From Schleiferia thermophila (GTDB lineage: Bacteria; Bacteroidota; Bacteroidia; Flavobacteriales; Schleiferiaceae), in NCBI RefSeq assembly GCF_003337435.1, contig NZ_QPJS01000007.1, forward strand, positions 1-37,226: 37,226 bases of DNA. The letters are read 5' to 3'. Shown in pieces: positions 465 to 24,793 of the stretch (position 1 is the stretch's first letter; every line of letters starts with the position of its first letter). Both the position numbers and the translations under genes were made by a program. The notes under the pieces are model-generated. The model was not told the origin of the DNA. It was given only the letters and a program-made list of their open reading frames with translations, and did no database searches.

Positions 465-2069
465 TCACCGGTACAATACAATCTCACCTCTTTTTGGGGT
501 TTGTGGGTTGCCATCTCTGTCGGTATAGCGAATGAGGTAGAGATATACTCCTTCCTGGACGGGCTTGCCCTGGTATTGCCCGTCCCAACATTCTTTGGGG
601 TCGGTACTGCTGTACATCATTGTTCCCCAGCGATTGAATATTTGTATGTGGTAATCTGCTACATTTTCTGCCGATACCTGGAAGCAATCGTTTACCCCAT
701 CGCCATTGGGGGTAAAGGCATTGGGGATGTAAATGGGGTAATCCACAACAGGGGGCGGGGAGCAATCTTTTTCATAAACTACTAGTGTGTCTGTATAGCT
801 AAAGCACTCATTGTAGGTGTGTACATAATAGACTCCTGCTTCATATATCTGAGTGGTAGCTGTGCTATCGCCATTGCTCCAGAGTATGCTTACTTCTTGA
901 GGTACTTGCACACCCAGCCAAGCCGATTGCCCAAGGCACAGGGTTTCTGGATAAGGAGCTATTTGAGGACTAAAATTGTAGATGTAATTGACTACAATGG
1001 TATCGTAAGCGCTGTAAAGTCCATCTATACTCACCTGTACCCAGTACGTACCTGCTTGATTTACTGTAATGCTTGGCGTGGTATCGCCTGTACTCCATAG
1101 ATAGTGACGGGTTTCATTTTCCAGCATATAAGTACTGTCAATTACCTGTGCGGTAAGCTGCAAGGTCTCGCCCTCACACAGGGTAGTATCGGCAGGTAGC
1201 TGCACTGTGAACAAGGTATCGCTGCATTTATAAAAATGGAAGTCGTCGAAAAAAACAAAGGAATAAAAAGATTGGAACATGGCTTGTGGATCGTTATTAA
1301 AATTTCTCCTTCGAGATAAACTGGTAGATGAATCAATAACATTAAATGAGCTTGGAGATAAGTTGGGATCAAATATTCCTAAGGAAAAATGATTGTAATG
1401 GTCATTGACACTTACATTAAATAAAACCTTTCTCCATTTGTCGCTTTTATTTATTGATGAATCATTTATTGAAACAACCAAAGAATTATTGACAATATCC
1501 GTATTTGAAAAACTAAAGCTTGGTAGATTAGCTAAACTTACAATACTATCTTTGGATAATGCGATATCAATATTATTTATTTGAAATGAATTTCTAGAAT
1601 CACTCCTTACAAAAAAATAACCACAATATTTATCTATTTCTGTAGTTTTTTTTAGAGGAATACTTATAATTGGAACTGAAATAACCCAATTCCAATTAAC
1701 ACCAAAAAATTGTCTAGCTTTTACAATAGAAAATGCAAAAAAATGGTCTCCGTTAAACGCATTTAAATTTTGATTATTTAATATGGAATCTAAAAGGAAA
1801 TTTATAGTAATTGGATAATAAAGATTTGGATATATAATCCAAATTTGACCAGAACCTGTAAAGTGAGAATATCTAATTGAAGCATCATACCAATCAAAGT
1901 ATCTTCCTTGAATGATATCAGGATGCAAATTTTGACCTGGCACTTTAATATATGGACAACCTATGTTATGTGGACAAGGGCCATGATTTTCAAAGGAGTA
2001 ATTAGAAATCAAATTTTGTCCCTGCAATTGGTTCATTATAATGAAGATGAAAAAGAGTACTTTTTTCAT
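465..2069 (-). CDS. T9SS surface protein with gliding-motility-type (CHU_C) C-terminal domain
   Basis: A protein of 534 residues, probably exported and attached to the cell surface by the type IX secretion system. I chose the ATG at 2069 because it begins a clean signal peptide (MKKVLFFIFIIMNQLQGQ); an upstream ATG would add eight residues. The N-terminal half opens with NLISNYSFE and looks like a jelly-roll type ligand-binding region. Around residues 300-440 are two related Ig/PKD-like units, each with LWS(T/N)GD and AGxYxV motifs. The last 90 residues (IPNAFTPNGDGVNDCF, then FNRWG, CWDG, GVYLYLI, GEIVLYR) are the CHU_C domain (TIGR04131 type) that serves as a T9SS sorting signal. The substrate or adhesion partner cannot be told from sequence. 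Confidence 0.9.
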   Translation of the reverse strand: MKKVLFFIFIIMNQLQGQNLISNYSFENHGPCPHNIGCPYIKVPGQNLHPDIIQGRYFDWYDASIRYSHFTGSGQIWIIYPNLYYPITINFLLDSILNNQNLNAFNGDHFFAFSIVKARQFFGVNWNWVISVPIISIPLKKTTEIDKYCGYFFVRSDSRNSFQINNIDIALSKDSIVSLANLPSFSFSNTDIVNNSLVVSINDSSINKSDKWRKVLFNVSVNDHYNHFSLGIFDPNLSPSSFNVIDSSTSLSRRRNFNNDPQAMFQSFYSFVFFDDFHFYKCSDTLFTVQLPADTTLCEGETLQLTAQVIDSTYMLENETRHYLWSTGDTTPSITVNQAGTYWVQVSIDGLYSAYDTIVVNYIYNFSPQIAPYPETLCLGQSAWLGVQVPQEVSILWSNGDSTATTQIYEAGVYYVHTYNECFSYTDTLVVYEKDCSPPPVVDYPIYIPNAFTPNGDGVNDCFQVSAENVADYHIQIFNRWGTMMYSSTDPKECWDGQYQGKPVQEGVYLYLIRYTDRDGNPQTPKRGEIVLYR

Positions 2070-2140
2070 GAGAATAAAATTAAATACACACAATATGGCA
2101 AATATTTAGAATACTGTGTGTTATTGTTTTAAAAATAATT

Positions 2141-4006
2141 CTAGTTCTTAACAATCCTGTGTCTGCTTTGTCCTGCATCAGAGTTTATTTGCATTATATA
2201 CATTCCTGAAGCGAGATTTTCTAGGTTAATTTGCAGCTGATCAGTGAATTCGGTGACCTTATAAGAATATACTTTTTGACCTATTTGGTTAATAATCATA
2301 ATATCGTGATGATAAGTTTTTTTGCTTAATTGAATATTCAATAGGTTACTTGTAGGATTGGGATATAAGTTGGTTGCAATAGCTGGTAATTCATCAATAG
2401 TTAATCCTCTATTAGAAGGAACGCTATTACATGAAGATATTGTTGCAGAAGAATTATCAGTGAAATCAGGATTTAATGATCCCGCCCATGTATTAGGATT
2501 AAAGGTTAAGCCTTGAGATGAATTCCAATAGTATGTTATTGGAAATCCAACATTCAAAGTTCCTTCTAATTTAAATGGATAGGAATGCATTACCCACTCA
2601 TTATTAGCACTTTGTGCAGGTGAGCCTATGTTGCCAATGTTCACATTTTGGAAGTAGATCCCTCGGGTATTGATAAATTGATTACACTCTATTCGGGTAA
2701 AGAGGAGGTTGTCTATCCCAAAGATAGAATAGCATAGGTTTTCAAAGATATTATTGCCTATCCAAGTGTTAAGTGAGTTGTTGGTATATAGGCCATAAAT
2801 GGTCCAGATATCGCAGTTGCTACTCATGGCCGTATTGGCATGGGTTATGTAATTTTCACCTACCACAGCATTTTCGCAATTATCTAGGCTAATGCCTCTA
2901 AAGGTATTGCCTGCGAGCTTACCCGTTATTTCATTAAAATTGATGTATAAGCGTTTGTTTATGGTCCAATTAGGGTCGCTTAGGTGGCGCGCAATGTCAA
3001 TGCCTCTCGCTTCTATATCTGTTAGAATATTGCTATGGATTAAGGTACGATTATAAAGGGTTTTTGGGGTGCCCAAATAAATTCCGGTAGTATAATTATG
3101 TATTTGATTATGTGATACATTGTTGTTGCCTGATTGGTTTATGAGGTCTAGTTTAATTGCATAAGATCCATTGTTGAAAGTATTGTACAATATATCGTGA
3201 ATTCCGTTGAGTGATTGAATTGCTGTATTGTTGTTTATAAACTCGTTAAAGGCAGTGCTTGAGTTGCCTATGTTTAGATAAGAATCTTTGCCTACTATTC
3301 CATAAGGGCCATTTTCCAATCGGTTGTTTTCCATGTACAATTGAGAGTTGATGGAATAAACGATTGGGTTTTCGGTATTGCCCTGTACAATAAGGTTGTT
3401 GATTCCTGCGCTCTGGTCACCAATGTAAACTTCATAACTGTTTATTAATACAATAGCTTGATGATAAAAATCGGCTATATAAGTGTAGGGCATTAAATTA
3501 ACAGTCGATGATGGCGATTGTAGGATACCGTTGTGTCCTTCCTGCCAAATATCGACTGTATTTTCTGTAAAAACTACGTTGTTTGAACCTGCTGTAAAAT
3601 TTTCAATTAAAAGGCTTATCATATTATTTGAAAAAGTAGAATTGTCAATCAACACAGTGGGATTGTTGAGCGCCCAAACTCCTCTAATGCCAGCTTCAGT
3701 ATGTGTTTGTGTAATGGATAAAGTACTGCTCGGGTCATCTACTACAATAGCATCCCATCTATATTCATTATTGCAATTCACAATGCTGCAATTGGTAAAT
3801 TCTACAGTGTAAGAAGCATCAATAACCAACTGAGCATCCGGAGCAAGATTAAAGATGCAGTTATCGAAAGTATAGTTTTCATCTAAATGCACAGTACCAT
3901 AAACATCAAAAATCATAAATGAGAAGAATCCACCTCCAATTTTTGGGCTAGTGGGTTCTTGCACAAAAATCTCATTACCTACACCATTGATACAACAATT
4001 CACCAC
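2141..4006 (-). CDS. T9SS beta-helix surface protein, main part (frame separated from its signal peptide by an in-frame stop)
   Basis: About 620 residues with the look of a right-handed parallel beta-helix: repeated short strands rich in Asn, Ile and Gly (VIDNSTFSNN, VENN and NNTAIQSL-like units) from the start to about residue 520. The last 75 residues (LYPNPTSNLLNIQL, GQKVYSYKV, LASGMYIMQI, HRIVKN) are a type A T9SS sorting domain (TIGR04183 type). No signal peptide precedes the first in-frame GTG at 4006. The same frame continues upstream, without shift, to a TAA at 4070-4072 and then to a 104-residue segment with a signal peptide. The two pieces therefore read as one gene of about 747 residues broken by one stop codon. 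Beta-helix T9SS proteins are often adhesins or polysaccharide-binding proteins, but no catalytic motif is seen here. Confidence 0.8.
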   Translation of the reverse strand: MVNCCINGVGNEIFVQEPTSPKIGGGFFSFMIFDVYGTVHLDENYTFDNCIFNLAPDAQLVIDASYTVEFTNCSIVNCNNEYRWDAIVVDDPSSTLSITQTHTEAGIRGVWALNNPTVLIDNSTFSNNMISLLIENFTAGSNNVVFTENTVDIWQEGHNGILQSPSSTVNLMPYTYIADFYHQAIVLINSYEVYIGDQSAGINNLIVQGNTENPIVYSINSQLYMENNRLENGPYGIVGKDSYLNIGNSSTAFNEFINNNTAIQSLNGIHDILYNTFNNGSYAIKLDLINQSGNNNVSHNQIHNYTTGIYLGTPKTLYNRTLIHSNILTDIEARGIDIARHLSDPNWTINKRLYINFNEITGKLAGNTFRGISLDNCENAVVGENYITHANTAMSSNCDIWTIYGLYTNNSLNTWIGNNIFENLCYSIFGIDNLLFTRIECNQFINTRGIYFQNVNIGNIGSPAQSANNEWVMHSYPFKLEGTLNVGFPITYYWNSSQGLTFNPNTWAGSLNPDFTDNSSATISSCNSVPSNRGLTIDELPAIATNLYPNPTSNLLNIQLSKKTYHHDIMIINQIGQKVYSYKVTEFTDQLQINLENLASGMYIMQINSDAGQSRHRIVKN

Positions 4007-4069
4007 CGTAGAACTTAAGGTGAAAACATTGAACCCATTGGTATAAGTAATGTCAAAAGTGCCAAAATC

Positions 4070-4384
4070 TTAAAAATCGGTAATGTTTACAGAGCTTAGT
4101 GTGAGAACCCCTGTTGAAGAATTAAAAGATTGGGTTGCAGTAAAGCCAACAGGAAAAAAGCCTGTAACGGAAAAAGTTGGATTGTGTCCAATCACTTGAA
4201 AAGTAGCTGTGCTACCACAAATGCCCACGGCATTACTGCCCACTGAGCTGGGTTGTAAACTAAATTGGGCATTAAGCCAAGTGGGAGAAAGGGTCAATAA
4301 TCCTGGAATCATTAGGCTTAGGATTAGGGTTACAGAGTTGCAGAGTTGCAGCGTTGCAGCGTTGTGAGTAGATACTTGTTTCAT
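4070..4384 (-). pseudogene. N-terminal part (signal peptide) of the broken beta-helix T9SS protein
   Basis: A frame of 104 residues starting at the ATG at 4384. It has a signal-peptide-like hydrophobic stretch ending in TWLNAQ and then a mature part with SVGSNAVGICGSTATFQV. It ends SVNITDF-stop; directly after the TAA the same frame reads DFGTFDITYTNGFNVFTLSS and runs into the beta-helix protein. The first 20 codons overlap an 8-bp tandem repeat (4330-4369). A good promoter lies 20-30 bp upstream (4413-4442). Without readthrough this fragment would be exported without a sorting domain. It could also be an assembly error of one base. Confidence 0.7.
4330..4369. repeat. 8-bp tandem repeat (about 5 units) in the signal-peptide codons
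   Basis: Five adjacent 8-bp units on the plus strand: gttacaga, gttgcaga, gttgcagc, gttgcagc, gttgtgag. The middle three are nearly identical and the outer two degenerate. Eight is not a multiple of three, so gain or loss of one unit would shift the reading frame 15-55 bp after the start codon. Confidence 0.8.
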
Positions 4385-4412
4385 AGTTCAAATGGAAATG
4401 GTATGTATATTT

Positions 4413-4442
4413 CAAAAATAATTTCTTTTTTAAAACATGCAA
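4413..4442 (-). promoter_or_regulatory. Bacteroidota-type promoter of the beta-helix gene
   Basis: On the minus strand TATTTTTG (4420-4413) fits the TAnnTTTG -7 box exactly. A TTG (4442-4440) lies 19 bp upstream as the -33 element. The predicted start of transcription is about 20 nt before the ATG at 4384. Confidence 0.6.
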
Positions 4443-4500
4443 CCGTTTATATGTTAAAATTTTAGAAAAAGTTTAAGATTGCGGATGTTGAGTTGACTGA

Positions 4501-4543
4501 TTTTCTGATAAAATAAAAGGACCATGTATATAACCAGGGTAGA
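4501..4543. repeat. Intergenic repeat R1, copy b
   Basis: Second copy of the repeat at 1-46: same opening block, same ggaccatgtatataa core and same gggtaga end, with small indels. It lies about 60 bp upstream of the promoter of the beta-helix gene. Confidence 0.7.
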
Positions 4544-5271
4544 AGTGAAGGGTGTACAAATATTCACTGCGCAAGTGCACCAAAATCTCACGAGTTGCGC
4601 GACCCACTGGCTAACTTTGAGGTGATAAGACCTGCACGAAAAGCTGTCAAAAGGAAATTGCCTGAAGCATCTGTGGTAAAAAATATAAAACCTCTTTAAT
4701 CTCTAGCACAGTCTTTTCTAGCCACTTAATTGTGATGTTCGTCTATTACCAAACCCTCAATATTTAACGGACAATTTTAAGCAGAGCCTATAAGCTCTAA
4801 AAGCGTAAGAAGTGTAAAAAAAGTGGTTTATAATCAAGAAAATTTTTTAATAGTTAGGTAGTTGGGAGTTTGATGGTTCTAAGTTGGGTAGTTTGGTGGA
4901 TTTGTTCACAGTTCAAAGTTTGAGGTTAATCTGATAACTTTAATATTTAAACTTTGAATATTAATACCATATGTAAAAAATATTTCAAATCTTCAAAAGT
5001 CATTAAACATTAATCATTGACAAGTGACAATTGAAACTCCAAATCCGACATCTACGCTGCCGCCGGCATTTTCAATGTTTTTATTCCTTTCAACTAGGTC
5101 AAATGAAAGAACCCACCAACGGAAGAATGCCAATTTTTTTGAGATAACACGTATTCATAAAACATTCTTTTTGCAACAATGCTGCACAACTACACGAGCG
5201 CGGAAACGCATAATGGTAAAGCGAATATTCAAAGAGGTTTAAAGGTTGTGGGGCGCTATGAAGAGAAAAGC

Positions 5272-5943
5272 CTAATCCAATTTAAAAGCGAGCCCAATTT
5301 CTGCCATAATGCTTCCGTGATTATTGCTCAAGTGATGGTAGCGTGTGGTAAGTGATAAATCCATTTTTGCATGTATTACATACAGAGCACCTGCTCCAAT
5401 AAAGTAAGTAACTCTATTGATATACAATTGATAAGGTACTAAATGATTAAACTCAGCTATAATTTGATTATCTAGGCCTACTGTAACTTCTTCTATGCCT
5501 ACTACATAGTGTTTTCTAACCTGCAAATAACTCAATCCTAATTCACCCATTACGCTCCATTGATTTTTTAAGTTAAAGGATTTCATAAGCCCAAAATCCA
5601 GTATGGCTTGATGACTATGCGCTGTGTAATAACTCTTTTCTTCGCCATTGATATCTCTTCCTAGCCAATCTTGAAAACCAGGATGTTCAAAGCTATAAGG
5701 CACACCCTTTTCAAGCACAATACCTCTATTACCACCGCCATACATAAAACTCCTGCGGAGCAATAGATTAAACTGATAAACCTTTGGAGAATTGTACTGA
5801 ATACTCAGGCCATAAGCATGTAAATTACTATGATTCATATACATATAAGGCAAAGCTGCATAAACTTCACCATATTTTTGAGCCAATAAAGAGGATGACT
5901 GAATTAAGCATCCTACAAAAACTAAAATCTTGTACCTAAACAT
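5272..5943 (-). CDS. Probable outer-membrane beta-barrel protein, last gene of the barrel cluster
   Basis: 223 residues with a signal peptide (MFRYKILVFVGCLIQSSSLLAQ) followed by alternating polar and hydrophobic strands typical of a small outer-membrane barrel. It ends in AEIGLAFKLD, so it lacks the final aromatic residue seen in its neighbours. The ATG at 5943 lies 22 bp inside the 3' end of the preceding barrel gene, so the two are almost certainly co-transcribed and translationally coupled. No known family is recognised. Confidence 0.7.
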   Translation of the reverse strand: MFRYKILVFVGCLIQSSSLLAQKYGEVYAALPYMYMNHSNLHAYGLSIQYNSPKVYQFNLLLRRSFMYGGGNRGIVLEKGVPYSFEHPGFQDWLGRDINGEEKSYYTAHSHQAILDFGLMKSFNLKNQWSVMGELGLSYLQVRKHYVVGIEEVTVGLDNQIIAEFNHLVPYQLYINRVTYFIGAGALYVIHAKMDLSLTTRYHHLSNNHGSIMAEIGLAFKLD

Positions 5944-6623
5944 AAACTCATGCTTAAAAAATCACTATATAAAATATGATTATAATCGGCTTGAATGCCC
6001 AATTGCGTATAAGTACCTAATTGGTATCTTAGAAATGCAGAAGCGTTGAAATTAAAATTTCCCAAAGCATCTCTTGCTAGCTGACGTAAATCTCCGTAGA
6101 TATCCACATCTATATACCCTACCACATTGCCACTCTCGTAAACCTCAAAACGATTCAAACCACCTCTTGCATAGAATCCTCTATGCATGACCATTTCATT
6201 TCTTAGTGCCGAGATTAAGGAGAGCTTTGGGTAACCAAGATTCTTTATTTCATAAAACACACCCAAATTCAAGCCCATTATATTGAATAAATCTGTAATC
6301 TTAATATTATCAGGTATATTGCCATTTGGCAGAGGGTCTCCACCAATTGGGAAATAGGCATTATTAGGATTATATGGGCCCGTAAAACCATGAAATAAAA
6401 CTCCTTCATAATTTATCCTCTCCCAATACTCAAACCTATCGTAAAACAAACCTAGATTTACTCCAAAACCCTTGTGTAGCTTCCTGAAGTAATTGATTTC
6501 TAGCTTATTAAAATCAAAATTATCTACAGCAAAAAACTGTTGACTTAATTGAATTTCGCTTTTGCTTTGAGCTGTACCCAAGAGTGAGTAAAAAACTAAA
6601 ATGCAAAATGTTGTTTTTTTCAT
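5922..6623 (-). CDS. Probable outer-membrane beta-barrel protein
   Basis: 233 residues. The ATG at 6623 gives a signal peptide (MKKTTFCILVFYSLLGTAQ) and lies about 18 bp downstream of an excellent promoter; an in-frame start further upstream would precede that promoter and is rejected. The mature part consists of amphipathic strands (LEINYFRKL, GFGVNLGLFYDRF, FNASAFLRYQLG) and ends MSLCLGTRF, with the terminal Phe typical of BAM-assembled barrels. First gene of a two-gene unit with 5272-5943. Function unknown. Confidence 0.75.
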   Translation of the reverse strand: MKKTTFCILVFYSLLGTAQSKSEIQLSQQFFAVDNFDFNKLEINYFRKLHKGFGVNLGLFYDRFEYWERINYEGVLFHGFTGPYNPNNAYFPIGGDPLPNGNIPDNIKITDLFNIMGLNLGVFYEIKNLGYPKLSLISALRNEMVMHRGFYARGGLNRFEVYESGNVVGYIDVDIYGDLRQLARDALGNFNFNASAFLRYQLGTYTQLGIQADYNHILYSDFLSMSLCLGTRF

Positions 6624-6640
6624 TTCTAAAAATCGTAGTA

Positions 6641-6668
6641 CAAACCTAAACTTCAAAAGAAGCCACAA
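6641..6668 (-). promoter_or_regulatory. Bacteroidota-type promoter of the barrel pair
   Basis: On the minus strand TAGGTTTG (6648-6641) matches TAnnTTTG exactly, and a TTG (6668-6666) lies 17 bp upstream. The leader to the ATG at 6623 would be about 10 nt. Confidence 0.6.
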
Positions 6669-6702
6669 GCGTTAAAGCTAAAAAATGACCCTAAGAAAAA
6701 TC

Positions 6703-6760
6703 TCACCTCCTCTCACAGCAATTCACCTCTTCGGTACTGTGGCAAGATTTTTCTACTTTG
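6703..6760. repeat. 58-bp repeat R2, copy a
   Basis: Begins tcacctcctctcacagca and ends gatttttctactttg. It is identical to 12939-12996 except for one base (aat here, act there). It lies just upstream of the promoter of the barrel pair. In one plus-strand frame both copies stay open (SPPLTA, then HLFGTVARFFYF), which hints at a fragment of a once-coding or dispersed element. Confidence 0.85.
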
Positions 6761-6841
6761 AACAAGCCGCAAGGCTAAGGGTCATCGATAATTTCCGCTG
6801 CGGTGTGCTTATTCAAAAATGGCTACAGGATAGCGAAAAAA

Positions 6842-7516
6842 TTAAAACCTATAACCTATACCTACCATAAATTGTATAAAAGCATCCCATTCATATGTGA
6901 AGAGGAAGGGATTGTTGCGCAAAGGTGGTTCATCTCTTCGAAATTCTTTGAAATAGTAGCTGCCTATGCTAAAACCCACTTGAGCATTGAAATACAACTT
7001 ATCATTAAGAGGAAACTGCCCTCTGAGATAAGCGGTATTAAACAAAAATGTTCCCTTTTCTCCAATGACTCCTTCTTCTACTGTATAAAATTCACGAATT
7101 GAGCTAAAAGATGGGTCTACTAACTCTTCTAAGAAAATATAATTAAGTTTTTTGAGGCTCAATCTATGTGCATGAATAGAGTAACCTATAAAAAAATGAT
7201 TCTGTGAAATACTAGCAAATCTTTTCTCAGTGAAAAAATTTAAGCCAATTACATCCGTGGTATTTATTCTATAAGCGCGCTTTCTATACACATAATTATT
7301 TCTATCATGTGGTATGTCATTCAAATGAAAATTAAAACCCCCACCAAAATTTAGTTTTTTTCTTTCTATTCTCAGGTTTATTTGTGCTCCCTTGTGAGGA
7401 AGTACTCTACCAATGCTTACATCCAAACATACACCTAGTGAATCGCGTTGGGCTATGCTGGGTAATGCCACTAAAAGCAAAATGCCAATGGCCAATAAAT
7501 GATACTTTGTTTTCAA
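6842..7516 (-). CDS. Probable outer-membrane beta-barrel protein, paralogue of the next gene upstream
   Basis: 224 residues with a signal peptide (MKTKYHLLAIGILLLVALPSIAQ) and barrel-like strands, ending FMVGIGYRF. The stretch IERKKLNFGGGFNFHLNDIP followed by a GLNFFTEKRF segment lines up by eye with YERQNWNFELGLNYFINVYP and GLDLSIERNW in the gene at 7513-8154, so the two look like a tandem duplication. The start overlaps the stop of that gene by 4 bp. Function unknown. Confidence 0.75.
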   Translation of the reverse strand: MKTKYHLLAIGILLLVALPSIAQRDSLGVCLDVSIGRVLPHKGAQINLRIERKKLNFGGGFNFHLNDIPHDRNNYVYRKRAYRINTTDVIGLNFFTEKRFASISQNHFFIGYSIHAHRLSLKKLNYIFLEELVDPSFSSIREFYTVEEGVIGEKGTFLFNTAYLRGQFPLNDKLYFNAQVGFSIGSYYFKEFRRDEPPLRNNPFLFTYEWDAFIQFMVGIGYRF

Positions 7517-8154
7517 AATTTATATTTTAATGAAACATTGTATGTAATTGTGAATGCTTCACCACCCACAGCTCTAAAAAATTTGCTAATCAACCAATCT
7601 GCACCACTCACTAGATTATCATCAACATAGTAGTAAAAAACTATACCCGGTAAGGCACTCATTGAAATAAAGAGATTGTCATACAATCTTCCATCAAAAC
7701 CCAAACCCAAACTATACATCCAATTAAATGAAGGGTCAACATCTAAATTATAAATATAAATTGCGTACCAATTTCCATCGTCCCCAATAAAAGTAGGAGA
7801 CATTAAATCAATTACATGTGCAATGTAATTCACAAAAAAATTATTGACAAAGTACAGTCTATTGTTATTGTTCTTTATCCAATTTCTTTCAATACTTAGA
7901 TCCAATCCAAATCTTTGGCTGTTATTAAATGCCCAGCCCCTATTAAAATGAATATTTCCTTGATTATCTGTAGGATATACATTGATGAAATAGTTTAGCC
8001 CAAGTTCAAAGTTCCAATTCTGCCGCTCATATCCTCCAGCTACAAAAGTATAATGACCAAAATGCTTTTTTGAATATCCTGATTTGATGCTCCAAGGCTG
8101 TGCATGCATCATAATGGGTATTAAAAGTATCATTAACAAACAATTCTTCTTCAT
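7513..8154 (-). CDS. Probable outer-membrane beta-barrel protein
   Basis: 213 residues starting at the ATG at 8154, which gives the signal peptide MKKNCLLMILLIPIMMHAQ; an in-frame start at 8181 would add nine residues of no signal character. The C-terminus ISKFF, then TYNVSLKYKF, carries the terminal Phe of outer-membrane barrels. The leader has the A-rich CCAAAAAATG context also seen at the lipoprotein start at 9569. It follows the split lipoprotein at a 57-bp distance and precedes its paralogue at 6842-7516. Confidence 0.75.
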   Translation of the reverse strand: MKKNCLLMILLIPIMMHAQPWSIKSGYSKKHFGHYTFVAGGYERQNWNFELGLNYFINVYPTDNQGNIHFNRGWAFNNSQRFGLDLSIERNWIKNNNNRLYFVNNFFVNYIAHVIDLMSPTFIGDDGNWYAIYIYNLDVDPSFNWMYSLGLGFDGRLYDNLFISMSALPGIVFYYYVDDNLVSGADWLISKFFRAVGGEAFTITYNVSLKYKF

Positions 8155-8211
8155 TTTTTGGAAATAATTAAAAAAGCTCATACAGCAATTTATATGAGCT
8201 TTATCATCTTA

Positions 8212-8937
8212 CTATTGTGTTCTTATCATTTTGAAATCTCCCAAAGGCTCGTTAATCCAATTATTTGCCCACTGAGAAGGATGCCAGCATATCCAGTCGT
8301 AAAACTTTATGGTTGGAGTTTCTTCAGGTTTGTAAGCAAAATAATCATTTGTCCAAGTTCTTTTCGACCTAGAAAAAATTTCCACCTTTGAACCATTGGC
8401 CAAAACTAAATATGTACCACAATGAATTTTTCCACCTTCAAACCAATCTCTTTCTACGGAATTCCAGCAAGTATTGCATTTATCTATTCGCTGTTGCAGA
8501 TTTACTGGTCTATCCGCAACTTCATTCCACATATATAGCCATTTATTTATATCATTTTTATTTACCTTTTTAAATATGCTGTAAGCAAACGGATAAGGTA
8601 TATGATCCCAAGCACCTGTAAAAGAGCTATATGCTAGCCTTGAGCCAAAATTCCAAACCTCAGAATCTCCCCATCTCTCATGTCTTACCTTTATTCTAAA
8701 ATCATAGGTGGAGAATTTATCACCAGCGGTTGCAGGTGGCATATCACAATTCACACAATTGTCAATTTCAGAGGGAGGAGGTGGTGGTGGAAGTTTTATT
8801 CCTGTATAAAACCAAGGTGGAGGACTTAGTCCTAAAGCTACATAATGATAACCAGGGTTTACCGATACAATTCCAATTACCATTGTTTCGCAATTTATGG
8901 ATCTATTTTCATCAATAATTACCTCTTCCCACGCCAT
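8212..8937 (-). CDS. C-terminal part of split lipoprotein, copy 2
   Basis: Up to 241 residues from the ATG at 8937; the open frame extends upstream to about 8997. There is no signal peptide although the protein has many cysteines, which would suit an exported protein. A run of prolines follows SPPPWFYTG. Near residues 125-175 it shares V-x-K-x-D-I-N, VNLQ, C..W, E-x-D-W-F and C-G-x-Y in the same order with the piece at 11391-12074. I read it as the second half of the lipoprotein at 8961-9569, now one frame off: with one base restored near 8961 the frame would continue as RVAFNATNMAWEEV, then ETMVIGIVSVN. Alternatively it is a separate translationally coupled gene. Function unknown. Confidence 0.6.
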   Translation of the reverse strand: MAWEEVIIDENRSINCETMVIGIVSVNPGYHYVALGLSPPPWFYTGIKLPPPPPPSEIDNCVNCDMPPATAGDKFSTYDFRIKVRHERWGDSEVWNFGSRLAYSSFTGAWDHIPYPFAYSIFKKVNKNDINKWLYMWNEVADRPVNLQQRIDKCNTCWNSVERDWFEGGKIHCGTYLVLANGSKVEIFSRSKRTWTNDYFAYKPEETPTIKFYDWICWHPSQWANNWINEPLGDFKMIRTQ

Positions 8938-8960
8938 GTTTGTAGCATTAAATGCCACCC

Positions 8961-9569
8961 TTATACTGCATCGCCATCTATATTCGGATAATACATCTCA
9001 TCATCCACATCTATCGCTGGTGTTACCAGCGGAATATAGGTATTTGAAGCTTCAAAAATATTGTATATAGAAATTGCAAGCTCATATTTATAGCCATCTA
9101 CATCCATACTACTTTCTAATTGGTCAATACAATTAAAACCTGCACATCCATTGCCCATTACAGTTGATAATTCATTTGCAATTTGCAACGCAAAAGTACT
9201 GTCTTCTTTTCTAAGAGTGTAAAAAGGCAAATCTGTACTTCCCGTTCTTTGATACCAATAAGCAGCGGCAGAATGTAAATTATAAATAAAGCGGGGATTC
9301 AAGGCTAAATTTCTAATGGCAATACTTAATTGATACTTAGCAATAAAATAATTCTGTTGCTCAAGAGTAAGATCATAAGTAAAAATTGTATTTGAGTCTT
9401 GTTGATTTTCTGGATACGCATGACAGAAATGACTCAGAAGGGTTTCGGGTATTTCCGAAAACATAGGTTTTGCATCTAAAGATTCTTTTTTGTCCTTCTT
9501 ACAGCTGAGTGCTATAAAACATGACAGAATCAATAATGAGAAATTTTTTAAAAGATTCTTTCTTTTCAT
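8961..9569 (-). CDS. N-terminal part of split lipoprotein, copy 2
   Basis: 202 residues from the ATG at 9569. The lipoprotein signal peptide ends in IALSCKKDKK with Cys23 as the lipid attachment site, so it should sit in the outer or inner membrane. The middle is helical (YQLSIAIRNLA). The end has GYKYELAISIYNIF, TYIPLVTPAIDVDDEMYYPN and a stop at 8961-8963. The paralogue at 12093-12725 shows the same order (YYLAKSLRIFA, GYSYNSLKSALVYDN, FPPSIKVDN, WYPN). From memory, a group of uncharacterised Bacteroidota lipoproteins has this layout in one chain, followed by a P-V-I-V-x-G segment and a Y-E-x-D-W motif; I cannot verify this here. Confidence 0.65.
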   Translation of the reverse strand: MKRKNLLKNFSLLILSCFIALSCKKDKKESLDAKPMFSEIPETLLSHFCHAYPENQQDSNTIFTYDLTLEQQNYFIAKYQLSIAIRNLALNPRFIYNLHSAAAYWYQRTGSTDLPFYTLRKEDSTFALQIANELSTVMGNGCAGFNCIDQLESSMDVDGYKYELAISIYNIFEASNTYIPLVTPAIDVDDEMYYPNIDGDAV

Positions 9570-9594
9570 TTTTTGGTATTTTAAAATTAATACT
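9570..9594. repeat. 25-bp leader repeat R3, copy 2
   Basis: A run of six T, then ggtattttaaaattaatac, directly upstream (in the minus sense) of the lipoprotein start at 9569. The same 25 bp recur at 12698-12722 before the paralogous lipoprotein, showing that the duplication included the translation start region. Confidence 0.85.
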
Positions 9595-9601
9595 CAAAAC
9601 A

Positions 9602-10264
9602 TTAAAACCACACATTGATTCCTAGTTTATTCTGAAAAACCCATTTACTACCCTCGTCAGATACATTCCTTCCGATACCTCCGTAAACGCTGAGTCCTAA
9701 GTCTGCAATTTCTGTTAACCTAAATCTGTAAGTTAATTGACCATTAAACTTAAAATGATTTTGAACCAACGGCACTTCAAACTCCTCAAAACTAAAGCCT
9801 GTGCTTGGTGTGCCAAATATGATAATTGGCAAACCTTCATCTCTGCTTACATAGTAGCCAATATTATAACCAATCCATAATGGTAGATTATAGGATGACT
9901 TTAAACTATATAAATGTGAAAATGAAAAAAAATGACCTATGATATAATCATTTAAAGGAAATCCATTGCCTGTAGAATCTTTAATTGTATGACTCGTTGC
10001 ATCTCTATAGTATTCATATTTAAAACCAAATAATGAATTGCCAACTTCTAGGTAAGATGAAATTCCAATGCCATGTCTGCTAAATATTTTTCGATTTATC
10101 TCCAAATCTTCATTAATAATATGATTGGCAAGATGAAAATTAGAAAAATCTGGATAATTAAACACTTCAAAAGAAAATGTCAATTTATCAAAAAAACGCG
10201 TTTTCTCCTGACCATTGCTATAAAAAGAAAATAGTATAAGTAATAAGCAGAAAGATTGTTTCAT
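9602..10264 (-). CDS. Probable outer-membrane beta-barrel protein
   Basis: 220 residues with a signal peptide (MKQSFCLLLILFSFYSNGQ) and alternating strands; the C-terminus NKLGINVWF ends in Phe as in BAM substrates. The ATG at 10264 directly abuts the stop of the barrel gene at 10265-11425. It is the last gene of module copy 1, and the copy 2 lipoprotein follows 32 bp later. Function unknown. Confidence 0.75.
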   Translation of the reverse strand: MKQSFCLLLILFSFYSNGQEKTRFFDKLTFSFEVFNYPDFSNFHLANHIINEDLEINRKIFSRHGIGISSYLEVGNSLFGFKYEYYRDATSHTIKDSTGNGFPLNDYIIGHFFSFSHLYSLKSSYNLPLWIGYNIGYYVSRDEGLPIIIFGTPSTGFSFEEFEVPLVQNHFKFNGQLTYRFRLTEIADLGLSVYGGIGRNVSDEGSKWVFQNKLGINVWF

Positions 10265-11425
10265 CTATCTATATGCATTAAATTTGTATGAAACACCCAA
10301 TCGAACTCTATCAATTCCTAATCCTATATAGTTTTCTAAATCTGGATTTAGTATTTTATACGTCTCATTAAATGTAAAATAGTCAATCTTACAATTAAGA
10401 CTCCATCTGTCGTCGATGACATATCCAGCAGCAAGAGAGTATCCACCTATAAAAAGTCTATTCTTTGTAAATAATCCATCCTCCAAGTCCATTATCATAC
10501 TTGCGTCAGTACCATTAATAAATCCAAGACCAAAGTATAGTGAGTTAGTTTTAACACGAATATATTTATTGAAGTATAAATATTGAAGTTCAAAATGAGT
10601 AGTCCTTCTTCCATCAGTCATTCCTTGATAGTGAAAAAGTCTTTCAGCTGAAATAGAGATTCCTGTTTGATTATGCCTCAATTCAAGGCCCAAAGAATGG
10701 GAATTCAAAAAGGTTTTGTCATATCTATTTTGGTCAATATTTAATTTTGCAAAACTTAGATTACTAAATAAACCTAAATTAAAAAACAAGTCTAATTCTT
10801 GATTTTTTGAAACTTTTGTATGAGCTCCGAACAATTCATGCTTGTAAGTAAGCATGTATGTGGTATTGAAATTAGCAAAAAATGAATTTGATTGAAATGT
10901 ATATATACCATTAAATAATACATTAGCTTCTATCCATTTCATTTTGAATCCAAACATAGGGACAATGTTTGTATGTCTATTAGGATAATACTGTGAAAAT
11001 ATATTATTATAGGTATTTGAAAGACCTATTCCAAATTTTAATCGACCTAAATACGAATATAAATTATAATAGTAATTGTGAATATCTAAATTTAACAAGC
11101 CATTTTGGAAAGGATAAATTACATCAAATTTTGAGTAATTAAACTCTAAGCCCAATCGATATTTTTTATAATAAATACCTACACCGATAGAAGGAGAATA
11201 AGCTAAAAGATCAATGCCTCCAGGAAAAAATGGCAATGGAAACATTTCATTACTTGGATCTGTAATGTGAAGTCCTGTGAGGAGATAAATATTTCTACTT
11301 GATGTTTTTGTTGTATCACTAGCTTCTAATTCTTGAAAAAAACTTACTGCAACCAAGAAGATTGCAGTAAATATTTTTAAACAATTAGTATTAATACGCC
11401 TTAATATGTATATCTCCATACCCAT
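10265..11425 (-). CDS. Probable outer-membrane beta-barrel protein (386 residues)
   Basis: Begins at the ATG at 11425, with a second ATG two codons on. The hydrophobic segment LKIFTAIFLVAVSFF serves as a signal peptide after an unusually long basic start (ILRRINTNC). The mature part has many amphipathic strands with Tyr/Phe/Asn girdles (GVGIYYKKYRLGLEFNYSKF, LKFGIGLSNTY) and ends RVRLGVSYKFNAYR. It overlaps the end of the preceding lipoprotein piece by 35 bp, implying coupling. Larger than its neighbours, so perhaps 14-16 strands. No family recognised. Confidence 0.7.
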   Translation of the reverse strand: MGMEIYILRRINTNCLKIFTAIFLVAVSFFQELEASDTTKTSSRNIYLLTGLHITDPSNEMFPLPFFPGGIDLLAYSPSIGVGIYYKKYRLGLEFNYSKFDVIYPFQNGLLNLDIHNYYYNLYSYLGRLKFGIGLSNTYNNIFSQYYPNRHTNIVPMFGFKMKWIEANVLFNGIYTFQSNSFFANFNTTYMLTYKHELFGAHTKVSKNQELDLFFNLGLFSNLSFAKLNIDQNRYDKTFLNSHSLGLELRHNQTGISISAERLFHYQGMTDGRRTTHFELQYLYFNKYIRVKTNSLYFGLGFINGTDASMIMDLEDGLFTKNRLFIGGYSLAAGYVIDDRWSLNCKIDYFTFNETYKILNPDLENYIGLGIDRVRLGVSYKFNAYR

Positions 11426-12074
11426 TATAATTGATCATTTTTGAATACTTTCTTTCCTCACCTATACACCAACATTTATTCTTTTCAACAAAAATTAGCT
11501 GATATGGCTTGTCTTTCTTCTTGCTATCTACACTCGCTTTTATCCGTAGACACTTATCATCAAAAGGGAGTGCAAATGTACTTTGATATATTCCGCAAAT
11601 TGAATTAAAATGTACTATTCTTTTTCTCGTGGCGAACCAATCATATTCATAAGTTGCGGCTAGCCATTTTTTACAATTTGCATTTACATCAGGTAATCCA
11701 GGATGCTGTAGGTTTACATTTCTATTGATTGAGATATTTGAGTTAATATCATCTTTATGAACGCTTTTTAAATCATAAGCTTTTGAATTCCAGTAATCAT
11801 GAATATGGTCTAGATTCATAGTTCTTACCCTCCATTCACTATGTTTCGTTCTTGATTCATTCCTTTTTGTAATATGACAATTCTTGTATTGTATGTAATT
11901 AGCATCATTACATACATTGCCAGGAGCTCTTGGGTCAAATAGAATTTCACCATTTTCTGTTGAATCGTGATGTCCATCAATGATAACTAAGAATAAGTGT
12001 TCATCATTTTCATCAATATTATATCCAACAATTAAAATTGGAATATCAGTTATTGGTAAAATTGACAAATCCAA
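11391..12074 (-). CDS. C-terminal part of split lipoprotein, copy 1
   Basis: About 227 residues from a TTG at 12074; no ATG exists near the front. The frame is open back to the TGA at 12093-12095 and is exactly in frame with the upstream lipoprotein, reading KRFG-stop-AELNEALDLSILPITD. There is no signal peptide. It has VHKDDIN, VNLQ, C-K-K-W, E-x-D-W-F (about 143-147) and C-G-x-Y (about 160-163), matching the copy 2 piece at 8212-8937. Most likely this is the back half of one lipoprotein, silenced or reached only by TGA readthrough. Function unknown. Confidence 0.6.
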   Translation of the reverse strand: MDLSILPITDIPILIVGYNIDENDEHLFLVIIDGHHDSTENGEILFDPRAPGNVCNDANYIQYKNCHITKRNESRTKHSEWRVRTMNLDHIHDYWNSKAYDLKSVHKDDINSNISINRNVNLQHPGLPDVNANCKKWLAATYEYDWFATRKRIVHFNSICGIYQSTFALPFDDKCLRIKASVDSKKKDKPYQLIFVEKNKCWCIGEERKYSKMINYNGYGDIHIKAY

Positions 12075-12092
12075 TGCTTCATTAAGTTCTGC

Positions 12093-12725
12093 TCATCCAA
12101 ACCTTTTACCAATTAATATTTCGTCCCAATCATTACAACCTTCATTTGGATACCAAGCTGGAACAAAATCTCCAATAGAGTCTTGGAAATCTGCTTCTGC
12201 CCCTATACCAATTATTGCCTTTGATAAGAACCAATTGCATGTTTGAAAATTATCTACTTTAATTGATGGTGGAAACTGAACATTATCATATACCAATGCA
12301 CTTTTTAAGGAATTATAAGAATAACCATGATTAGATAACTCATTCTCTAAATCTGTAAAATAATTATTATGAATTGATAAAAAATCATCTAACAACAGTT
12401 CACCATCTTCATTCAAATAGTTTCTTACATCAAGCAAAAACTCTTCGTCACAAGCAAAAATCCTCAAGCTCTTTGCTAAATAATATAAAGCTCTGTCGAA
12501 ATCTTCTTCTTCACTATCATAAGGATTGTCTAAATAATTGATTAGTGGCTGTGGCAGATTTCTAACTATCTCATACAATTCTGGTTGTCCAGAAAGTTCT
12601 GGCTTTGGCACATTAATTAAAGCTTGAAAATCTTTTTTACAAGATGAAAAAATCATCGATGTTACTACTATAAATAGTAGAGTTTTTAAGTTTTTTATTT
12701 TTTGGTATTTTAAAATTAATACCAC
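12093..12725 (-). CDS. N-terminal part of split lipoprotein, copy 1 (start codon decayed)
   Basis: Lipoprotein with LLFIVVTSMIFSSCKKD, Cys being the lipid site. The frame can begin at a GTG at 12725, but that GTG lies inside or at the transcription start predicted from a TACATTTG box at 12737-12730. Alignment of the 25-bp leader repeat with copy 2 shows that the homologous start codon (ATG at 9568-9570) is ATA here (12696-12698). The body matches copy 2: YYLAKSLRIFA, GYSYNSLKSALVYDN, FPPSIKVDN, DFVPAWYPN. It ends with TGA at 12093-12095, in frame with the piece at 11391-12074. A weakened start plus an internal stop suggest a pseudogene. Confidence 0.6.
   Translation of the reverse strand: MVLILKYQKIKNLKTLLFIVVTSMIFSSCKKDFQALINVPKPELSGQPELYEIVRNLPQPLINYLDNPYDSEEEDFDRALYYLAKSLRIFACDEEFLLDVRNYLNEDGELLLDDFLSIHNNYFTDLENELSNHGYSYNSLKSALVYDNVQFPPSIKVDNFQTCNWFLSKAIIGIGAEADFQDSIGDFVPAWYPNEGCNDWDEILIGKRFG
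12698..12722. repeat. 25-bp leader repeat R3, copy 1
   Basis: Identical to 9570-9594. The base next to it differs: the copy 2 ATG corresponds to ATA here. Confidence 0.85.
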
Positions 12726-12729
12726 AAAT

Positions 12730-12737
12730 CAAATGTA
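12730..12737 (-). promoter_or_regulatory. -7 box of the promoter of module copy 1
   Basis: Minus strand TACATTTG fits TAnnTTTG exactly. No good TTG is seen at the usual upstream distance. The predicted transcript start near 12723 makes a GTG start at 12725 unlikely. Confidence 0.45.
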
Positions 12738-12938
12738 AAAAACAATGTGTGTGTGAAATAGGCTAAATTCAGTGTGAAATAGCCTAAACACTTTGTTAAA
12801 GAAAATCGCAGACTATTATAATTAGTAGTTTTAACATATCTTACATTTGTTATGCATGCATAACATTTTTGTTTTTAATACAAGTATTACTATTAAAATG
12901 TAGTGTTAGTACATGTGTTTAGTTACAAATTCACACAT

Positions 12939-12996
12939 TCACCTCCTCTCACAGCAACTCACCTCTTCGGTACTGTGGCAAGATTTTTCTACTTTG
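12939..12996. repeat. 58-bp repeat R2, copy b
   Basis: Same as 6703-6760 with one mismatch and in the same orientation. It lies about 210 bp upstream of the copy 1 lipoprotein, as copy a lies upstream of the barrel pair. Confidence 0.85.
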
Positions 12997-13532
12997 GGGT
13001 AGAGGTAGATGGGTAGAAATAGTACTTCCGACATAATTTTATAATGATATTCTCTTCTTTAAACCAAAAACTTATAGCAAGGCATGGGTATAGCATAAAC
13101 GGGGATTTTCTCCCCAAAATTTGAAGGGTAGCTGAGTATGGAGAAAAAAACAAATCAATTATTTCGCGAAAAATGTACAGAAACCTGGCACTTTGTCTGT
13201 TTAAATTTCACTCTTTTTATCTTATAAAAGCGATATATCAGATCTCCTATTCGTTCCAATGAACAATCACTTTCTCATGGCTAATCATAATCAAAAAATA
13301 ATGGATTGTATGGACTAAAATTAAGAAAAAGGTCAATAGTAATATCACAGGAATTTTAAATGGATAGCGCAAAGATTGATTGTAATTTCTTCGTATTTGC
13401 TCATGATAAATCAATGAGTTTACACATTGTGGAGGGATCCGATGTGCTTTTTTATCATTTAAGGATTCTTCTTCAATTCAAACAATACTTTCGGTGGTGC
13501 AAATAGTTTGGTTTAATCGGTCCGAGGTGATT

Positions 13533-13672
13533 TGCGTGAGGGATGCGGAGGGCGCCCGTAAGGGCGGTGCGGAGCACGGGAGCGAAGCGCACCCCGGAGC
13601 AGCCCGACCCCGTGCGGTAAGGCCGACGCAGGAGGGCCGGCGCACGGGGGCACGCCCAAAGGAAAAAAATTA
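13533..13672 (+). ncRNA. GC-rich structured intergenic element, copy A (putative)
   Basis: A 140-bp GC-rich block in an AT-rich surrounding, from tgcgtgagggatgcgg to cacgcccaaa plus an A-run. Hairpin I is CGCCC (13553-13557), loop GTAA, GGGCG. Hairpin II is GTGC/GCAC, followed by CGGG/CCCG. Hairpin III is the 9-bp stem CCCCGTGCG (13608-13616) with CGCACGGGG (13641-13649), with inner GGCC/GGCC. Copy B at 24654-24793 keeps every stem, with one compensatory change and G-T wobbles. Calling it an RNA is inference; it could act as DNA or as a transcription-stop element. Confidence 0.5.
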
Positions 13673-13706
13673 TCTTTTAGATTAGCGGCCGTGTAGTGTA
13701 GTGTGG

Positions 13707-14165
13707 ATGGGAAAGCAATCGCAGGGTGAATCGCTTTGGGGCCCTCTGAGGAGGTATGTACCGAAGGCGGCTTTTGGATATGTGGAGGAGCTTCTGAACA
13801 GGGAGGTAATCTACCTGAAGGTGACCAGGCCTAAAAAGTCAAGGGCGGGTCTTTACTTCTACGATGAGAAGTGCGGCAGGCATGTAATTTACATCAACGG
13901 AAATCTGGATCGGTACAATTTTCTGATTACGCTGGTCCATGAGTACGCTCATCTGGTGGTGAGGAGGCAGTATGGTAAGGCTGTGAAGCCGCACGGGGTG
14001 GAGTGGAAGCGTGCGTTTGCGGGGCTTATGCGGCCATTGCTGAGGGTGGAGGTGTTTCCGGAAGAGATAGTGAAGTTGCTGGCCTTGCATATGCGTAATC
14101 CGATGGCTACGCACTTTCGCGATCAGGAACTTCTGAGTGTGATTAAAAAGTATCAGCAGCACTGA
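13707..14165 (+). CDS. SprT-like zinc metalloprotease-domain protein
   Basis: 152 residues from the ATG at 13707 (a GTG two codons upstream is possible). The zinc motif H78-E-Y-A-H82 lies in LITLVHEYAHLVV, and a third likely ligand is the His of VKPHGVEWKRAF about 16 residues on. This matches the SprT-like family, whose eukaryotic relative Spartan cuts DNA-protein crosslinks; the bacterial role is unsettled. My memory of flavobacterial homologues is about 200 residues with an extra C-terminal strand region, so this one, ending VIKKYQQH, looks short. It lies directly after the GC-rich element and 64 bp before miaE, which has its own promoter. Confidence 0.85.
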   Translation: MGKQSQGESLWGPLRRYVPKAAFGYVEELLNREVIYLKVTRPKKSRAGLYFYDEKCGRHVIYINGNLDRYNFLITLVHEYAHLVVRRQYGKAVKPHGVEWKRAFAGLMRPLLRVEVFPEEIVKLLALHMRNPMATHFRDQELLSVIKKYQQH

Positions 14166-14202
14166 AGGCCGGGAAGGGTGGGGGAGTGGAGGCTGTGGTC
14201 GT

Positions 14203-24653: not shown

Positions 24654-24793
24654 TGCGTGAGGGATGCGGAGGGCGCCCGCAGGGTGGTGCGCAGCGCAGC
24701 GGAGCACGGGAGCGAAGCGTACCCCGGAGCAGCCCGACCCCGCGCGGTAAGGCCGCGAGGCCGGCGCGCGGGGGCACGCCCAGGAAAAAATTA
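24654..24793 (+). ncRNA. GC-rich structured intergenic element, copy B (putative)
   Basis: Second copy of the element at 13533-13672, same orientation, 140 bp. Hairpin I is CGCCC (24674-24678), loop GCA, GGGTG (one G-T wobble). Hairpin III is CCCCGCGCG (24738-24746) with CGCGCGGGG (24765-24773); the T-A pair of copy A is C-G here. The inner stem is GGCC-GCGA-GGCC, with a GNRA loop. A 9-bp insertion relative to copy A falls in the loop of the GTGC/GCAC hairpin. Both copies end in an A-rich run. It lies 7 bp beyond the stop codon of the DUF2911 gene, antisense to it. Confidence 0.5.

Follow-up and report, generated by a model that had tools for sequence, protein, structure and literature searches.

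A stretch of 37,226 nucleotides from Schleiferia thermophila (contig NZ_QPJS01000007.1, positions 1 to 37,226; we call the whole of it the window) carries on its minus strand two tandem genes, A (11391..12725) and B (8212..9569), for members of an unnamed lipoprotein family that is paired with outer-membrane barrels and has no fitting Pfam or NCBIfam family. The genes behind A and B encode secreted, strand-rich proteins. We give a probability of about 0.6 to the reading that Bacteroidota have a genuine two-part surface module, an outer-membrane lipoprotein encoded just upstream of a small or medium-sized barrel, that here the lipoprotein genes of both modules are disabled, and that the lipoprotein half has repeatedly been lost while the barrel was kept.

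The lipoprotein, with a helical N-terminal and a beta-rich C-terminal part, would probably be exported to the cell surface and there probably be carried or positioned by the barrel encoded next to it. This genome would hold two long-diverged versions of the module, neighbours in an island that is AT-rich and carries surface genes, A having been disabled by the ATA at its start position together with a nonsense codon and B by a frameshift, and the open barrel genes would have been left without a lipoprotein partner. Other genomes of the Schleiferiaceae, the bacterial family to which S. thermophila belongs, appear to have undergone similar one-sided loss independently, which suggests that here the lipoprotein half can be dispensed with or is under adverse selection and the barrel kept.

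The interrupted lipoprotein genes

The A frame (N-terminal part 12725-12093, C-terminal part 12092-11391) has an in-frame TGA at 12095-12093 and then runs on for 233 more codons, and its start-codon position is ATA at 12698-12696, where B has ATG. The profile match of A, itself a row of the profile, spans model positions 2-418 of 419 (E 4.7e-168) with the one TGA inside. B has 1358 bases, which is not a multiple of three, and consists of two open reading frames in different frames, the N-terminal one at 9569-8961 ending in TAA and the C-terminal one open over 8997-8212, so that the split lies between 8997 and 8961; B, also a profile row, gives two separate matches (model 2-184 and 180-409, E 1.6e-69 and 1.6e-61). 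Neither gene thus has the uninterrupted frame expected of a family member, and both have a lipobox-like sequence. The identity of A to its relatives is 55/194 before the stop and 58/207 after it, and in A, B and the interrupted gene of genome G003 (G and L numbers are our handles for genomes and loci) both halves are still like those of relatives, so the breaks look recent. The first-pass annotation of this DNA, made from the sequence alone, proposed a surface complex of two such modules; the pairing on which it was built does recur, as described below, but the interruption of both lipoprotein genes had been overlooked and makes a working duplicated complex here unlikely.

Five of the nine lipoprotein genes in the Schleiferiaceae are interrupted, four by in-frame stops and one by a frameshift: A (TGA), B (frameshift) and those of G003 (TGA), G009 (TAA) and G010 (TAG). 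The lesions fall at residues 44, 62, 201, 203 and 262 of the different genes, and on the tree the five broken genes need five changes, at least four of them forced by well-supported branches. In the same seven genomes an internal stop was found in none of 135 matches to the TonB-receptor family PF00593 and in 2/73 matches to PF13568 (OMP_b-brl_2), both below the cut-off. None of 12 partner barrels is interrupted (0/9 type A, 0/3 small), and neither is any of 13 lipoproteins of the family outside the Schleiferiaceae, two of which are open only as far as the contig reaches. Fisher p values for all five lesions are 2.6e-7 against the TonB receptors, 8.9e-5 against PF13568, 0.006 against the 12 partner barrels and 0.005 against the outside members. 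Frameshifts do not show in the genome searches, and a comparison with the TonB receptors that is restricted to in-frame stops, 4/9 with 0/135 (p 7.3e-6), is the fairer one. Of the two genes that make up the surface module, one is interrupted far more often than the other; asymmetric repeated loss of this kind can point to a surface feature that carries a strong cost.

One of the two G030 lipoprotein genes, that on C53, was counted as intact. A (TG)8 tract (L003:699-714) lies within its signal-peptide region, and neither of the two nearest upstream ATGs, one of which immediately precedes the tract, is in the reading frame of the gene. From its sequence the tract is a candidate phase-variable start.

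The excess has to be weighed with several points that tell against our reading. The sample is small (nine genes in seven genomes), five of the seven genomes are in several contigs, and in assembled sequence a lesion may reflect a mixed population or a consensus error. The controls are barrels rather than accessory lipoproteins, which may decay faster generally, and the control searches would not show frameshifts. The stop in the G010 gene is in a poorly conserved stretch, with 3/19 aligned residues identical before it. In the window the secreted neighbour gene 4384-2141 is interrupted as well, so the effect here may be partly island-wide. Five of the 21 loci that can be judged have no barrel beside the lipoprotein, and it is gene adjacency by which we connect lipoprotein and barrel. 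What the analysis shows is the family, its pairing with barrels, the lesions and their excess over the barrel controls; export to the surface, a physical complex, loss of function and selection as the reason for the loss are inferred, and selection may or may not have acted.

Simple decay of an island that is AT-rich and probably acquired would account for the lesions in the window without any selection, their excess in relatives then being small-sample luck or a general decay of accessory lipoproteins. The base composition (33% G+C, and 47% in the right part of the window) and the in-frame TAA of the neighbouring type IX substrate agree with this, but the barrels in these operons have open frames, the neighbourhoods in G003, G009 and G010 have no further lesion by eye (the look was unsystematic), and the p value for in-frame stops set against TonB barrels argues in the other direction; we find decay as the whole explanation doubtful. 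Errors of sequencing or assembly in genes that are really intact might be suspected from the mostly draft assemblies and from the single lesion in four of the five cases. However, errors should strike barrels too, and all 135 TonB matches are free of stops; the in-frame stop of G003 interrupts a frame with no other break, in a genome assembled as one contig, and A holds two separate differences, all of which makes this explanation very improbable. It is scarcely credible that full-length lipoprotein is made by programmed recoding, through stop readthrough and ribosomal frameshifting. Recoding would leave what is seen in A, B and G003, frames that have no other break and resemble relatives before and after the lesion, but all three stop codons and a frameshift are involved, and at differing residues, so that there is no common recoding site; moreover the 8997-8961 overlap has no XXXYYYZ slippery heptamer, and the 13 members outside the bacterial family are open.

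The remaining alternatives bring in selection. Recurrent, lineage-specific counter-selection of the lipoprotein half, in which a nonsense codon, a frameshift or a dinucleotide-tract shift silences it and the barrel is kept, is a tentative idea that we think rather unlikely; if true, it would mark the lipoprotein as a surface liability (a receptor for phage, bacteriocin or predator) or as a phase-variable antigen. A reversible or recurrent silencing also seems unlikely to us. In it the lipoprotein would again be a liability, for instance as the receptor of a phage, bacteriocin or predator, and would be inactivated or lost in the dominant populations, with slippage or recombination bringing intact versions back. 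The confinement of the lesion excess to one gene of the pair, the (TG)8 tract of the G030 C53 gene with its out-of-frame ATGs, and a 58 base pair (bp) direct repeat that brackets the module in the window and could support deletion would all suit it. On the other side, true reversion would be needed for four of the five lesions, which are in-frame stops and of which none was seen beside a repeat tract, and no link to phage appeared when one family lipoprotein was compared with a phage collection and four proteins were tried in PADLOC. We therefore retain the reading of a genuine surface module with repeated loss of its lipoprotein half.

The lipoprotein family and its partner barrels

Single-sequence searches of 149 relatives gave weak but true relatives, and profiles built from these found the lipoprotein family in 7 of 88 Schleiferiaceae genomes. 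An order-level profile search of 395 genomes, a sample that overlaps the 88, added at least one accepted genome outside the bacterial family (G349), and a class-level search of 395 genomes at least four outside the order (G702, G511, G775 and G629), with up to four candidates scored in each genome. In named genomes the profiles found 13 loci, with the labels Bacteroidia, Porphyromonadaceae, Vicingaceae, Crocinitomix, Flavobacteriales, Bacteroidales, Chitinophagales, Flavobacterium cerinum and others.

A and B both have significant similarity to the family over their whole length, by profiles A2 and A5 and by pairwise shuffle Z scores. Compared directly they are only weakly alike (Z 6.6 for A with the N-terminal half of B, 2.3 with the C-terminal half), and they are firmly joined through G003, with Z 11.3 for A and G003, and 16.5 and 5.8 for G003 with the C- and N-terminal halves of B; A and the G030 proteins give 35.9 and 45.6. 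The paralogy and tandem arrangement in the first-pass annotation hold in this sense, but it took each gene for one open frame. It also listed six motifs shared in order. Five do read alike in A and B, the exception being YxLAxSLR (YYLAKSLR in A, YQLSIAIR in B), and most survive in a wider alignment; VNLQ and CGxY are common to A and B but not family-wide. E-x-D-W is in 8/9 rows of the family alignment, G010 being the exception, and R-x3-SE in 7/9. Such motifs could become a family model for a lipoprotein-barrel pairing that spans several Bacteroidota groups and is unnamed in Pfam and NCBIfam.

The description of the set as uncharacterised stands, in that none of the window proteins or relatives compared was seen to score as high as a curated cut-off of Pfam or NCBIfam, some relatives having matches by E value only (best 0.0031). 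Two candidates were rejected as far from firm: gp6_C-domII for the C-terminal half of A (E 0.0019, 19 bits with a cut-off of 27) and DUF3052 for one relative (E 0.0031). A PDB sequence search gave nothing under E 0.41, a scan of genome contigs with the C-terminal half of A alone gave no relative, two family lipoproteins had no match among plasmids and one had none in the phage collection, and PADLOC had no family for the four proteins tried. The predicted structure of one family lipoprotein (L064; predicted template modelling score, pTM, 0.77) has a helical and a beta-rich part.

For the counts we left out L006 and L007 (short matches in other kinds of protein), L008 (which overlaps L007), and G161, G288, G473, G478, G631, G452 and G456, which match in the N-terminal part only; the open frame of G478 looks like an unrelated lipoprotein. 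L063 and L042, L066 and L043, L072 and L044, and L073 and L045 are the same loci and were counted once each, and L069 was counted together with L068, which it matches in the part of the protein compared, the DNA of the two not being identical. L071 ends too early for a barrel to be judged, and 5' ends are absent at L067 and L072 outside the Schleiferiaceae and at G030 C168 inside. L065, counted as open and barrel-less, encodes a Bacteroidota-like family lipoprotein with an odd N-terminus on a contig labelled Mariniblastus, and is probably mis-binned or chimeric.

A barrel-like gene adjoins the lipoprotein gene in 16 of the 21 loci with a readable downstream side, so that the pairing expected by the first-pass annotation does recur in other genomes. 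In the Schleiferiaceae the barrel is directly downstream in 8/9 loci, with G016 the exception, and outside them in 8 of the 12 distinct loci where this can be determined; the downstream genes of L064-L075 were called barrels on alignment and not by a one-by-one test. A barrel directly downstream is thus a usual but not universal trait, and is present for both A and B. The barrels are of two sizes: those that follow type A lipoproteins in other genomes have about 363-377 amino acids, and those that follow the remaining lipoproteins about 203-227.

A belongs to the type A subfamily and is followed by an open type A barrel gene (10265..11425, minus strand; 386 amino acids from the first ATG). The first ATG overlaps the end of A and the true start is uncertain. 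This barrel, a row of the type A barrel profile, matches it with E 2.4e-98 and no stop inside the match, and is related to the barrels behind the lipoproteins of G030, G028, G009 and G010 (Z 3.8 and 4.8 with two G030 barrels). The profile finds nine type A barrels in 8/88 genomes, six of them profile rows; three (the second G003 copy, G014 and G024) have neither a lipoprotein gene nor a recognisable trace of one beside them, the best candidate remnant having E 0.18.

B is followed on the same strand by two small barrel genes, 7513..8154 (213 amino acids) and 6842..7516 (224 amino acids), both open. That they are paralogues, as first proposed, is borne out by Z 9.2, and the 6842-7516 protein has Z 9.3 with a G003 barrel. 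Its model has eight long strands (mean predicted local distance difference test score 77, pTM 0.69), as would be expected of the barrel that the first-pass annotation supposed. Between the type A barrel and B, 9602..10264 (minus strand) encodes a secreted protein of 220 amino acids with a signal-peptide-like start, a putative barrel with no detectable relation to the others (Z at most 1.7). All four genes between or after A and B down to 6842 are open, as are two further secreted genes (6668-5272).

The idea that the two modules are a recent duplication has to be given up. A is in a clade (support 100/99) to which B does not belong, and its barrel is not similar to either of the two behind B (Z 0.3 and 0.9). 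The branches of A, B and the L075 row on the tree are long, and B joins L075. One cross pair between barrel types, the large barrel of G030 C168 and the 7513 barrel, gives Z 4.0, so the two types may have a remote common origin.

The AT-rich island and its repeats

The island, which holds surface genes, is AT-rich: G+C content is 33.3% over positions 2001-13200 and 46.8% from 13701 on. The claim of an identical 25-bp leader before the two lipoprotein genes is correct, the minus-strand sequences at 12721-12697 (A) and 9592-9568 (B, reaching into its ATG start) being the same, with no match in 100 shuffles. The likeness extends to 31 bp with one mismatch, which falls at the start codon, where B has ATG and A has ATA, and the 20-base core at up to two mismatches is found only at these two places in the genome.

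The 58-bp direct repeat has one copy upstream of A (12939..12996, minus strand) and a second (6703..6760, minus strand) that follows closely on the last barrel and precedes the next gene pair, with 98.3% identity; its 34-base core is found only twice in the genome at up to three mismatches. The second copy is within a longer inverted repeat (window 6668-6790) with minus-strand ends ATGACCCTTA and TAGGGTCAT, which looks like a small palindromic element. Other modules also have repeats around them, direct at L009, L025, L028 and L068 and inverted at L060 and L066, but these differ in sequence by eye and we claim no common mobile element. There is no transfer RNA gene within the window. An Rfam search of positions 4000-14200 gave nothing useful, the sole match, to mir-8186 (32 bits, cut-off 80), being taken as chance.

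Beyond the module, genes 465-2093 and 2141-4384 have type IX secretion signals. The latter, on the minus strand, encodes a C-terminal type IX sorting domain and has its in-frame TAA at 4072-4070, with the frame open on both sides. A GC-rich, strongly folding repeat is present at 13533-13672 and 24654-24793, the copies being 84% identical over 149 columns.

Comparison with known systems

The surface export signal of Bacteroidetes lipoproteins is given in PMC5080379 as C-X-K-(D/E)2-X after the lipidated cysteine. Several family members have a lipobox and a C-x-K-(D/E) start resembling this signal. By this rule, G009 (C-S-K-E-E) and L070 (C-N-K-D-E) match in full, whereas A (C-K-K-D-F) and B (C-K-K-D-K) have one acidic residue instead of two.

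With regard to RNA elements, a DUF805b RNA (50.9 bits, cut-off 35.6) lies at L028:2328-2363 on the minus strand, about 17 bases upstream of the G016 lipoprotein start, and may hint at a regulon. Upstream of the G028 lipoprotein there is a sub-threshold DUF805 match (27.6 bits, cut-off 51.1). Neither DUF805 nor DUF805b (RF03081, RF02914) has a match in window positions 4000-14200 or in the first copy of the 58-bp repeat searched alone, and our literature search gave nothing on DUF805b, nor on DUF805 together with "structured RNA". In G009 two different lipoprotein genes are each directly preceded by a leader of 118 columns, 91% identical between L025:791-906 and 3723-3838. By eye a part of this leader is similar to the G028 DUF805-like leader, but it has no Rfam match.

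The C-terminal part of the L064 model (about residues 261-423) aligns weakly with C2-like beta-sandwiches (best Z 4.7, root-mean-square deviation 4.6, 114 aligned residues). With all Z scores below 5, Foldseek E above 0.2 and a different context from C2 domains, this modelled likeness would seem to be a common arrangement rather than kinship.

SusCD-like pairs combine a surface lipoprotein with an outer-membrane transporter in Bacteroidota, and here too a gene for a putative surface lipoprotein adjoins one for an outer-membrane barrel. However, the barrels described here, of about 205-390 amino acids, are far too small for a TonB-dependent SusC, and the ten window proteins tried had no match to SusD or TonB-receptor families at E up to 1. 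For the 6842-7516 barrel eight strands are predicted, as in the small outer-membrane proteins of OmpA, OmpX and OmpW type, and its best Foldseek matches include the major outer-membrane protein of T. thermophilus, OmpW, OmpA, OmpX and NspA, with probability up to 1.00; the best E value is only 3.0e-3, none being below 0.001, and other barrels such as OmpT score alike. The barrels of the present module differ from these proteins in having no Pfam family and in being encoded together with a dedicated lipoprotein.

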